Source of the DNA: Verrucomicrobiaceae bacterium
Lineage (GTDB): Bacteria; Verrucomicrobiota; Verrucomicrobiia; Verrucomicrobiales; Verrucomicrobiaceae
Direction of reading: 5' to 3'
Length of the DNA: 64,000 nucleotides
Assembly: GCA_019694165.1 (NCBI GenBank)
Contig: JAIBCL010000005.1
Location: forward strand, 124,001-188,000
The notes below the pieces were generated by a model. It was not told the DNA's origin. It saw nothing but the letters and a program-made list of their open reading frames with translations, and searched no databases. The translations under genes were made by a program, and so were the position numbers. Of this stretch, positions 18,805-22,607 are shown piece by piece; positions within the stretch are counted from its first letter, which is position 1, and each line of letters opens with the position of its first letter.

Positions 18805-20172
18805 ATGAGCACCGCCGCGCCGACCCGAGTCCGACTTTCCATTCTCACGATGGCCACGCTGGTGGCCTTCCTCATGTACCTCGACCGCATCTGCCTCGGC
18901 GAGATTGTGTCCTCGCGGTCGTTCAAGCAGTCCCTCCATCTCTCCCAGGACGACGTGCGCGCATGGGTGGGCACGATATTTTTCTGGCTGCCGCGCTCGT
19001 GGCAGGAGCATCTCGGCGGGCTGTCGCCCGTGGACTTGATCAAAGGTGCGTTTTTCTGGGCGTACGCACTCGCGCAGGTGCCGGCGGGCTGGCTGAGCGA
19101 CCGCTTCGGAGCGCGCGCGCTCATCACCAGCTACATCATCCTGTGGTCGCTCTTCACGGCGGCCACGGGACTCTCGTGGGGCTTCACGTCGCTGATGCTC
19201 GCGCGGCTGGGATGTGGTCTGGCGGAGGCTGGCTACTATCCGGCAAGCTGCAGCCTGCTCACGCGCTGGTCCCACATCGAGTGGCGTGGATTCTCCAGCA
19301 GCCTCATCAGTTGGGGCGGCCGCGTGGGCGGCGTGGCGGCGCCGGTTCTCACGGCGTACGTCATCGCATCGGCCGGTGACTGGCGCTGGGCGGGCTGGGT
19401 TTACGGCGCGGCCGGCGTGCTCATTGCCATCGCCTACTGGATCGTGTTCCGCGAGCATCCGCGCCAGCATCCGCGCTGCAATGACGCGGAGATCGCGCTG
19501 CTGGCCGAAGGGCGCGGCGACTTCCTGCCCGTGAAGGATCCGCCGCGGCGCTTCCCGCTCATCGCCGCGTGCCGCAGCGGAAATTTGTGGCTGGTCAATG
19601 GCGTCCAGTTTTTCACGAACGTCGGCTGGGCCTTTCTGATTCTCTCGCTGCCCGACTATCTGCGCGGGGTCATGCATCAGGACGACAAGATGAGCGGCAC
19701 CATCACCACCCTCGCCCTTGCCATCGGCGTGCTCTCGCTGCCGCTGGGCGGAATGCTCACCGACGTGCTCTCCCGCCGCATCGGCCGGCGGCTCGGCCAG
19801 GTGCTGCCGATGTCGCTCACGAAATTCATCGCCGCGGGATTTTATCTGGTGGCCGTGCAGACCCAGTCGGTGTGGGCGGCGGTAGTCGCCTTCGGGCTGG
19901 TGACGTTCTTCGTCGATTTCGGCCTGCCGGCGATGTGGACGACGATGCAGGACATCAGCGGGAAGCATCAGGCACAGTTCTTCGGCTGGGGGAACATGTG
20001 GGGAAACTTTGGCGCCGCCATCCAGCCGCTGCTGATGACCGCCGTGCTGCGGACATGGGACATGAATCATGACTTCAAGGAAGGCGTCTGGCTCTGCGCC
20101 GCCGCGCTCGTCGCCGCCGGCGTGCTGGCGCTGGGCATCAACTCGGATAGGCCGGTGATCAGCGAGCGCTGA
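18805..20172 (+). CDS. Major facilitator superfamily transporter (anion:cation symporter type)
   Basis: 455 residues, about twelve TM helices. Opening VAFLMYLDRICLGEI, motif GWLSDRFGARALIT (loop 2-3 MFS signature) and AEAGYYPASCSLLTRW are typical of the anion:cation symporter family (hexuronate, phthalate, tartrate transporters). The second half repeats the signature as GGMLTDVLSRRIGRRLGQ. An acid sugar or carboxylate substrate is inferred only at family level. Probably co-transcribed with the TauE/SafE gene. Confidence 0.85.
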   Translation: MSTAAPTRVRLSILTMATLVAFLMYLDRICLGEIVSSRSFKQSLHLSQDDVRAWVGTIFFWLPRSWQEHLGGLSPVDLIKGAFFWAYALAQVPAGWLSDRFGARALITSYIILWSLFTAATGLSWGFTSLMLARLGCGLAEAGYYPASCSLLTRWSHIEWRGFSSSLISWGGRVGGVAAPVLTAYVIASAGDWRWAGWVYGAAGVLIAIAYWIVFREHPRQHPRCNDAEIALLAEGRGDFLPVKDPPRRFPLIAACRSGNLWLVNGVQFFTNVGWAFLILSLPDYLRGVMHQDDKMSGTITTLALAIGVLSLPLGGMLTDVLSRRIGRRLGQVLPMSLTKFIAAGFYLVAVQTQSVWAAVVAFGLVTFFVDFGLPAMWTTMQDISGKHQAQFFGWGNMWGNFGAAIQPLLMTAVLRTWDMNHDFKEGVWLCAAALVAAGVLALGINSDRPVISER

Positions 20173-20192
20173 CGGCGCAAGCCTTGGTTTCA

Positions 20193-20280
20193 TCGACGCA
20201 AAGCCCGCCCGCCTCGCTTCCTCAATCCGTCAGGCCCGGTACATCGTTCGTGTCCACCAGCGCCGTTGCGTTGGCACTGC
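20193..20280 (-). pseudogene. Decayed 88-bp copy of the neighbouring peptidase gene
   Basis: An ungapped alignment of this segment with 21523-21610, inside the peptidase gene, gives 69 of 88 identical bases by eye. Read on the minus strand it encodes NATALVDTND-PGL, matching NATVLVDTND-PDL of the peptidase. It has a TGA where the intact gene has the TGG of EWGHKAG, then returns to GLCVDE against SLCVEW. No similarity continues on either side, so this is a scar of a duplicated or related gene. Confidence 0.7.
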
Positions 20281-20333
20281 ATCGCTGAACACCGCGGAGA
20301 CGCGAGGGTTTGCGTTCGTTCTGTGGTGTCACG

Positions 20334-20450
20334 ATGATTCGGGGCGTGATGCGAGTCGGCGAGCGGCGCTTTACAGTTCGTGTGTTGCCAGAGCAGCGGT
20401 CTGTTGTTTATTGGGAAGAGTATGATTATCCGTATCTAGTTGCAGCCTAA
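20334..20450 (+). CDS. Possible short cassette ORF or ORF remnant
   Basis: 38 codons beginning MIRGVMRVGERRF and ending YDYPYLVAA, with the stop inside the R'' region of the first attC. An ORF ending at an attC is the normal arrangement in an integron cassette. The frame is open from 20289, so the true start could be upstream. The family is not recognised; it may be the truncated end of a larger cassette gene. Confidence 0.35.
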   Translation: MIRGVMRVGERRFTVRVLPEQRSVVYWEEYDYPYLVAA

Positions 20451-20564
20451 TGCGCTGTAGCGAACGGCTTCAGCGCCGACCGTTCGAGCGTCTTGGGAGT
20501 TCGTGAGCGCACGGTGCGCTCCACCCGCGCCGCCGAGGCCGTCTCTGAGCTTGGGTCGTTAGCC
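20443..20564 (+). other. attC recombination site 1 (degenerate)
   Basis: The right end reads CTCTGAG (L'), CTTGGGTC spacer, GTTAGCC (R', 20558-20564). The left end reads GCCTAA, then ATGCG and CTGTAGCG (L'', 20455-20462). L'' and L' pair with one unpaired G in L'', one wobble and one mismatch. R'' is damaged relative to the GGCTAAC needed to pair with R'. The ends align closely with attC 2 (shared ATGCGCTG-AGCGAA and CTGAGCTTGG-TCGT). The cassette ORF starts eight bases after R', as usual. Confidence 0.75.
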
Positions 20565-20571
20565 GTCTTGC

Positions 20572-20913
20572 ATGTTCATGCTGCCAGCCATTTTCAATCG
20601 CAAACATCAAGCGGCTGAGGAGTCAGATTTCGGACGCCGTTTCGGTTGGTTCATCGAGCGAGACGGCGAGAGGATTGGTGAGCTTGATTACATCCGCTGG
20701 GATTCGGCGGCACAGTTTTGGCACGAGTATCGACTGGCTTGGCGCAGACCAGAGGATGCAGTGGTTGGTCCAGATGCTTGGATTGCAGCGAAGCTCGTCC
20801 TCCGGAGTCGGCGTTACACCGATGTTGTGATTGATACGTTTCTGACATCACCCGAGCGAGACGCTGGAGTGATTGCAGTTCGAGGTGCGTCTGTTCCTGA
20901 AGAGAGACTTTGA
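20572..20913 (+). CDS. Integron cassette gene, protein of unknown function
   Basis: 113 residues, flanked by attC 1 and attC 2, with start and stop close to each site as in mobile integron cassettes. The sequence is soluble and rich in aromatic and charged residues: GRRFGWFIERDGERIGELDYIRWDSAAQFWHEYRL, then PDAWIAAKLVLRSRRYTDVVIDTFL and a closing GVIAVRGASVPEERL (quoted here in parts). An antiparallel beta-rich start followed by a helix is plausible. No catalytic motif or known family is recognised. A second ATG two codons in is an equally good start. Composition is lower in GC than the chromosomal neighbours, in keeping with transfer. Confidence 0.75.
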   Translation: MFMLPAIFNRKHQAAEESDFGRRFGWFIERDGERIGELDYIRWDSAAQFWHEYRLAWRRPEDAVVGPDAWIAAKLVLRSRRYTDVVIDTFLTSPERDAGVIAVRGASVPEERL

Positions 20914-20925
20914 TACGATGACGAT

Positions 20926-21018
20926 GGCCAGCCATGCGCTGCAGCGAATCCGGCGTGAGCGTCGCGGTTGCAACCGTTGCGTCCCGCGAGCCGGGTCGCT
21001 GAGCTTGGCTCGTCAGGC
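20926..21018 (+). other. attC recombination site 2
   Basis: L'' is CTGCAGCG (20939-20946) and L' is CGCTGAG (20997-21003); they pair perfectly with a single extrahelical G at 20941, the feature that sets strand choice in attC recombination. R' is GTCAGGC (21012-21018) and the R'' region is GCCAGCC (20927-20933), complementary at five of seven positions. The centre folds further: CCGGC with GCCGG, and a perfect palindrome CGGTTGCAACCG at the tip. It ends 11 bp from the stop of the oppositely directed peptidase gene. Confidence 0.8.
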
Positions 21019-21029
21019 GTCGACTGGCT

Positions 21030-22607
21030 TCACAACATAGAGGCAAACGCCTTCCACTGTTCATCGACGCTCTTGCCGGTGATCTGGCCCCACAGCACAT
21101 CGCTGCATTCGCCTCTGCGGAGAGCCGCGTTCAGCTTCGCAACGAGTTCCGCGTGGCCTTGCTTTTCCACCCACTCGAGGAACATCGCCGTGGTCTTGTA
21201 GGCGTCTTTGTAGCTCGCTTTCGCGGGATCGAGCTTCGGTCGTGGCGCGGCGGGCTCATACTTCACGATGCGGATGTAGTCGGCGATGCCTTCGACGAGC
21301 CAGCCAGGGCCGCCGCCGGGATGCGATTGCACGACGTGCGTCAGCTCGTGAACGATCATGCCGAAGTCGTCGGGATGCGCGCGCACGTATTTGGCCGCGA
21401 TGGTTATCTTGCCGCCCGCTGCATGAGCGACGCCAGCCATCGTCGGATCAAAGTAGAGCGTCACTTCTTTCGGTGCGGTGAAGCCATCGCTCGGCAGCAG
21501 CGCGGCGATTTTGGGAAACCACTCGACGCAAAGCGAACCCGCCTTGTGGCCCCATTCCTTGAGGTCGGGCGCATCGTTCGTGTCCACCAGCACCGTCGCA
21601 TTGGCGCTGCTGATCTTGGTCATTGTTCTCTTCGAAGCGATGCCTTTGAGTTCGAGATCGTGGCGGCGCTTCGCTTCATCGCGTTTGAAGATCGGGCCCA
21701 CCTCGACCACGCAATTCTCGCCATCGGTCTTCACCCACGCGCAATCCGGCGAATCCTGCGGCGGCTTGTCCGGATAATAGGCGGACGCTTTCTTCAGCGG
21801 CACCTTTTGTCCGTTCAGTCGCGGCCAGCCAAAGGTGACATTCACCTTCGGGATGCCCGACTTCGGGATCTTCGCCGTGCTATACACCTCGACGAAGGCA
21901 CTGTGCTTCGGCCAGAACGTGAAGTCGGTTCCTTCAAAACGCAGACTGCCCACTTCATGCGTCTGACCGTCCGCTGATCGAATCGAGCAGGTGAACCAGG
22001 TGCAATCGACGTCCTTCACCTTCTCGCTTTTGCCCTTCGTCACGCACCAAGTGTAGGTGCCCTTCGTCCAGGCAAACGGACGACGCACACTCGCGAACTC
22101 GCCCTCATAGCCCGCGCTCTCGACGAGACAATCCTCAGCTGCCGTCTGCACATGATCGAGACCGATGGGAGTCTTCTTGTCGCTCGACCAACGCGAGAAG
22201 ATGCCGCCTTTGCCACGATGCACGCGCTCGCGACTCTCCTTGTTCACCCAGCCATTGATGTTGGTCTGGATGCCGCCGTAGAATTGCAGTCCGTTGATCT
22301 GCGCGATGCCGCAGGGCGAGATGTAGAGGTTGTAGTCGCCCGGCACATCGCGATCGATGGTCACATCCATCTCCAGCGAGGTGAAATGCTCCACCGGCTT
22401 CTCGAACTCCCACCAGATGTTCGCCACATGCCACGGACTGCCCGGCAGCGTGACACCCGCCGCCTTCGCCATGTCTTCCGGTGACGGCTGCTTGCACAGG
22501 TCTTCAGCAGAAGACAAGGCGACGGCGCAACAAACGGCGAGTAACCACACGAAAGGAAAAGCCAGGCGATTGGAGAACATGGCGGCAAAGAATTGAGGCG
22601 TCTTCAT
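21030..22607 (-). CDS. Secreted DUF3472 plus basic-secretory-protein-type metallopeptidase
   Basis: 525 residues with a signal peptide (ends near ALSSAED). Residues about 50-270 look like DUF3472: WWEFEKPVEHFTSLEMDV, GDYNLYISPCGIAQINGLQF and GKGGIFSRW. Residues about 325-520 match the basic secretory protein (plant/bacterial peptidase) family, with the zinc motif HELTH at 420-424, preceded by KYVRAHPDDFGMIV and followed by GGGPGWLVEGIADYIR, where the Glu after the motif is likely functional. Expected role: extracellular Zn-dependent protease. A decayed 88-bp copy of part of this gene lies beyond the adjacent integron cassette. Part of an accessory block with the two following minus-strand genes upstream. 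Confidence 0.8.
   Translation of the reverse strand: MKTPQFFAAMFSNRLAFPFVWLLAVCCAVALSSAEDLCKQPSPEDMAKAAGVTLPGSPWHVANIWWEFEKPVEHFTSLEMDVTIDRDVPGDYNLYISPCGIAQINGLQFYGGIQTNINGWVNKESRERVHRGKGGIFSRWSSDKKTPIGLDHVQTAAEDCLVESAGYEGEFASVRRPFAWTKGTYTWCVTKGKSEKVKDVDCTWFTCSIRSADGQTHEVGSLRFEGTDFTFWPKHSAFVEVYSTAKIPKSGIPKVNVTFGWPRLNGQKVPLKKASAYYPDKPPQDSPDCAWVKTDGENCVVEVGPIFKRDEAKRRHDLELKGIASKRTMTKISSANATVLVDTNDAPDLKEWGHKAGSLCVEWFPKIAALLPSDGFTAPKEVTLYFDPTMAGVAHAAGGKITIAAKYVRAHPDDFGMIVHELTHVVQSHPGGGPGWLVEGIADYIRIVKYEPAAPRPKLDPAKASYKDAYKTTAMFLEWVEKQGHAELVAKLNAALRRGECSDVLWGQITGKSVDEQWKAFASML

Follow-up and report, generated by a model that had tools for sequence, protein, structure and literature searches.

The window analyzed here is a 64-kb stretch of DNA, C12:124001-188000, within a 7.8-Mb draft genome (G000). 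The first-pass annotation, made from the letters of the window, had placed it in a Verrucomicrobiota-type genome, which is correct, the lineage being Verrucomicrobiales. Between an MFS gene and a gene for a BSP peptidase (21030-22607), the window carries a small cluster made up of two attC sites in the same orientation, a gene of 113 codons between them, and a 38-amino-acid open reading frame (ORF) that runs into the first site (Table 1).

Table 1. Positions of the features of the cassette cluster and its left flank, in window coordinates
Feature	Position	Strand	Details
BSP peptidase-like fragment (aa 334-362)	20192..20278	-	tblastn, 65% identity; left flank of cluster
GTTCGTT, possible left junction of first cassette	20314..20320	+	putative; resembles family R' GTTCGNC
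38-aa ORF, putative short first cassette	20334..20450	+	stop codon within attC1 R'' region
attC1	20445..20564	+	covariance model R1, E 2.2e-9
attC1 R'' box	20445-20451	+	GCCTAAT
attC1 L'' box	20454-20463	+	
attC1 L' box	20542-20550	+	
attC1 R' box	20558-20564	+	GTTAGCC
Complete cassette 2, R' cut point to R' cut point	20558..21011	+	boundaries deduced from attC anatomy
113-aa cassette gene	20572..20913	+	ORF between the two attC sites
attC2	20926..21018	+	covariance model R1, match 20926-21014, E 7.9e-9
attC2 R'' box	20926-20932	+	GGCCAGC
attC2 L'' box	20938-20947	+	GCTGCAGCGA
attC2 L' box	20996-21004	+	TCGCTGAGC
attC2 R' box	21012-21018	+	GTCAGGC

The layout is that of a gene cassette, as the first-pass annotation had described. 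The 113-codon ORF opens 8 bases past attC1 and closes 12 bases short of attC2; it is the single ORF between the two sites (between 20564 and 20926), and its flanks are short. We found homologues of the 113-aa protein at 58 to 63% identity in three genomes (G252, G037, and G035), one of which, G252, belongs to another family of the order and has the 63% match, and weaker homologues in two more (G180 and G274). In comparisons of the cassette gene to its homologues, pN was 0.22 to 0.25 and pS was 0.74 to 0.86; since pN is well below pS, there was selection for protein function during the divergence of this gene. Its GC3 is 0.50, compared to 0.76 to 0.87 in the neighboring genes, and, as judged by codon use, the gene is foreign. 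We found no match of the protein to a family in Pfam, NCBIfam, PHROGs, or PADLOC, none in plasmids, and, when peptide patterns were used, none in GTDB species genomes. The AlphaFold model of the protein has low confidence (pLDDT 61.6), and no attC site was seen beside homologues of the cassette gene in other genomes. The protein represents a small family that is scattered in the order and in which one stretch, FGRRFGWFIERDGERIGELDYIRWD..QFWHEY, is strongly conserved.

The 38-aa ORF also has a GC3 of 0.50, and a search for its homologues found none; it is probably part of a short first cassette. On the left flank, a fragment resembling aa 334-362 of the BSP peptidase at 21030-22607 lies across the cluster from that full-length gene and shares its strand. 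This fragment is also matched in genes of relatives, and its presence on the left flank shows a further rearrangement of the locus.

Detection and condition of the two attC sites

The two sites have the common ends reported in the first-pass annotation: the left end reads ATGCGCTG.AGCGAA, and the right end, at positions 20545-20559 and 20999-21013, reads CTGAGCTTGG.TCGT. The annotation had also proposed to check them with an attC covariance model. We searched the window with a model of our own (R1), in which the R''/R' and L''/L' pairs are modeled and which was built from eight sites in integron regions of the same family, none of them from the window. This search identified exactly the two sites (E values in Table 1) and a third-best match that is noise (E of 1.2), in what is partly a similarity search, since half of the R1 training sites share the attC type of the window. 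A second covariance model (R2), whose 72 training sites all lie outside the window and are mostly of other attC types, agreed with R1 and matched both sites, with E values of 1.1e-5 and 1.2e-6. When we used a generic model built from proteobacterial attC sites (R3), neither site reached significance at the scale of the 64-kb window, and their scores with filters removed were 12.3 and 5.2 bits; the same model does find the resident sites of this genome and intact sites of the window type in relatives. A search of Rfam over positions 19900-21400 returned a single chance match under the gathering score. We also scanned for a strict consensus (RYYYAAC..GTTRRRY, pairing required), but this recovered almost nothing in the arrays of the family because the native R' box is often GTTCGNC.

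Both window sites have close counterparts in related genomes, with 80 to 92% identity to attC sites over 75 to 120 bp. For example, an attC site in an intI-adjacent array of G024 (L093:8812-8924) shares 89% identity with attC1 over 113 bp, and two other families of the order have sites that match attC1 at 85% (G101) and 80% (G136) identity. The attC2 site matches many attC sites in other genomes at 82 to 92% identity. In G024, G025, G028, and G040, sites of the window type belong to arrays that adjoin true intI genes, and near-identical attC sites are also scattered in relatives without any intI. Of 289 genomes of the order, 44 contain the pattern GTCGCTGAGCTTGGGTCGTT with up to 2 mismatches, and the reversed control pattern was nearly absent.

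That similar sequences occur singly, and without an integrase, in many family genomes is what would be expected if the sites belonged to a palindromic repeat that is dispersed in genomes, has nothing to do with integrons, and only looks like attC. We regard this explanation as highly improbable, since this class of sequence separates cassettes in intI-adjacent arrays, has the spacing of cassettes, carries R', R'', L', and L'' boxes together with the extrahelical base, and in the window has a gene placed exactly between its two copies. A common non-integron repeat, the alternative that the first-pass annotation had itself raised, is not what we found: the sequence is present in only 2 copies, and the right-end motif CTGAGCTTGGNTCGTTAG occurs at just these two places in the 7.8-Mb genome when up to 2 mismatches are allowed.

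Integron cassettes travel as folded single strands, and the integrase IntI binds the hairpin of the attC bottom strand and cuts at R'. Among the 111 attC sites that we collected, with the two window sites counted in, AAC is present in R'' in 100 and GTT in R' in 96. Both of these triplets are mutated in attC2, AAC to AGC in R'' (GGCCAGC) and GTT to GTC in R' (GTCAGGC). The R' box of attC1 (GTTAGCC) is good, and its R'' box is disrupted or shifted, with a shortened spacer and an R'' region three bases shorter than the native GCCTAACCATGCG. The first-pass annotation was thus right to describe the R'' boxes as degraded, and neither window site has both core boxes intact, GTTRRRY in R' and RYYYAAC in R''. 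Both sites are real attC sites by descent, but damaged ones; because homologous sites elsewhere mostly keep both R boxes, we file the pair as decayed attC by descent and not as functional attC.

The predicted folds of the bottom strands differ between the two sites. In attC2, L'' and L' pair around one unpaired base, as had been proposed, with pair probabilities of 0.66 to 1.0, and the extrahelical base of this stem is a single G. In attC1, the L stem is predicted to be lost (probability of approximately 0.01), and its enforced formation would cost 4.5 kcal/mol. The L stem forms in all of the homologues that were folded, with probabilities of 0.4 to 1.0. We also considered whether the sites could still be functional, so that the cassette could be mobilized in trans by the IntI encoded on contig C38. 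This genome has an intact IntI, attC2 has kept its hairpin with the extrahelical G, and the R' box of attC1 is good, but excision needs both sites, and with the attC1 stem not formed and attC2 carrying GTT to GTC and AAC to AGC changes, we think it quite unlikely that the cassette can still move. The boxes and predicted folds instead suggest that the cassette has probably become immobile, as a fixed part of the chromosome.

Integrase genes and attC arrays elsewhere in the genome

The first-pass annotation noted that there is no functional integrase in the window, and this statement holds across the contig, as we found no integron integrase on C12; one does exist elsewhere in the genome. The intact intI gene lies at C38:247064-248002, 0.7 kb from the contig end, and its product scores 393 to 395 bits as an IntI (cutoff of 265) and has catalytic residues that align to those of IntI4 (2a3v). 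The carriers of the most similar integrase are Verrucomicrobiales metagenome-assembled genomes (MAGs), some of which are labeled Prosthecobacter. The integron integrase, at L010:7061-8479 (minus strand), is approximately 472 aa long and has an N-terminal extension of approximately 155 aa before the SAM-like domain, and this extension is also found in relatives (L189 to L193).

Arrays of attC sites are also present on contigs C11, C22, C34, C46, and C56. The attI motif TTGTGGCTAAACAACGTT, which is common to the regions upstream of intI in the family, occurs four times in the genome, at C11:11536 (L111), C22:183064 (L115), C38:248569 (L010), and C56:191994 (L114). The intI genes beside three of these attI sites, all except the one on C38, are truncated after approximately 46, 97, and 5 codons, and the truncated copies have 98 to 99% nucleotide identity to the intact copy. 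Four attI-bearing platforms in one genome, one with intact intI and three with these nearly identical truncated copies, suggest that the integron recently multiplied or broke up.

A complete integron has intI and attI adjoining an array. Both elements are present on C38, and at the window we found no intI fragment and, with 3 mismatches allowed, 0 matches to the attI motif. The resident integron, spread over C38, C22, C11, C56, C34, and C46, resembles the window pair in its attC architecture, in which R and L boxes are combined with an extrahelical base. In contrast to the window pair, which is of type GCGCTGCAGCGAA and has no attI, the resident sites are almost all of type AACGGATGCAGGCAACGGCTCG, are intact, and in several cases adjoin attI; nearly all of the 24 other attC sites of the genome are of a different type than the window pair.

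Class, possible origin, and relatives of the cluster

Clusters of attC sites that lack an integron integrase form the CALIN class of IntegronFinder and have been proposed to be degraded integrons (PMC9024848). We conclude that the stretch is very probably a decayed CALIN with two attC sites, in which one complete cassette stands behind the attC1 site of an earlier short cassette. The label of attC cluster without integrase, given in the first-pass annotation, suits two sites 361 bp apart on a contig without intI. Like a CALIN, the cluster has at least two attC sites, a cassette gene between them, and no integrase nearby. It differs in that its sites number just two and have damaged boxes, for which reason a standard model may miss it.

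Three routes to a CALIN have been proposed, namely, off-target insertion by a distant IntI, loss of intI, and rearrangement (PMC8618304). The first-pass annotation had read the locus as the remains of a chromosomal integron, and of this the attC sites and the cassette stand; for an integron at the locus itself, we found no trace of attI or intI. The pair may nevertheless be all that is left of a complete integron at this place, from which intI, attI, and the other cassettes were deleted, and loss of intI clearly occurs in this genome, where three attI arrays have a truncated intI. We treat local loss as one of two live origins but not the favored one, and its likelihood falls clearly short of even: the window has neither an attI motif nor an intI fragment, its attC type is missing from nearly all of the other sites of the genome, and the orthologous flanks in relatives are without attC, with no site found within 1.5 kb of the orthologues of the flanking genes. 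These three observations lead us to favor insertion away from an integron, followed by decay, as the origin of the cluster, a reading that we hold with slightly better than even confidence. We judge off-integron insertion through an integrase working in trans to be no less likely than the loss of intI at the locus.

If the cluster arose by off-integron insertion, the cassettes would have entered not at an attI but at a secondary site, located between the MFS gene and the peptidase gene, through the action of an integrase in trans or through earlier recombination with foreign cassettes. Later mutations would then have removed the L stem of attC1 and both core R boxes of attC2, which would have left the cassette probably frozen in place. 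Just such a cluster away from the integron would result if cassettes were inserted at attG sites of the genome (Loot et al. 2024, as cited in PMC12901181). For the window cluster, the left junction is putative, and no empty insertion site was found in the loci of relatives that were read, in which the flanking genes are not neighbors.

Across the family, we found attC sites in 48 of 67 genomes (R1, E of 1e-4) and detected intI in 26 of 68. There are 29 attC-positive genomes without detectable intI, and these include single-contig or near-complete genomes (G061, G060, G013, and G045). Both AAC and GTT are kept in 50 of 64 sites that come from intI-free genomes or lie far from intI, and the attC type of the window accounts for 42 of these 64 when loose classes are used, a share that is inflated by the training set of R1 and that we take as no more than a lead. 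A broader proposal would be that cassettes of the window type have spread in this Verrucomicrobiales family mainly outside integrons and that the window pair is one fossil of this process, which we put forward tentatively and consider unlikely.

Since integrons in Verrucomicrobiota and the routes to CALINs have already been described (PMC8618304), the single locus is in itself ordinary. It provides a clean and checkable case of integron cassettes stranded and decaying outside Proteobacteria, in a genome with a separate integrase, and the scatter of attC sites in integrase-free family genomes would make off-integron insertion testable far from the usual models. Many attC sites in the genomes of the family also look isolated (for example, L242 to L301).
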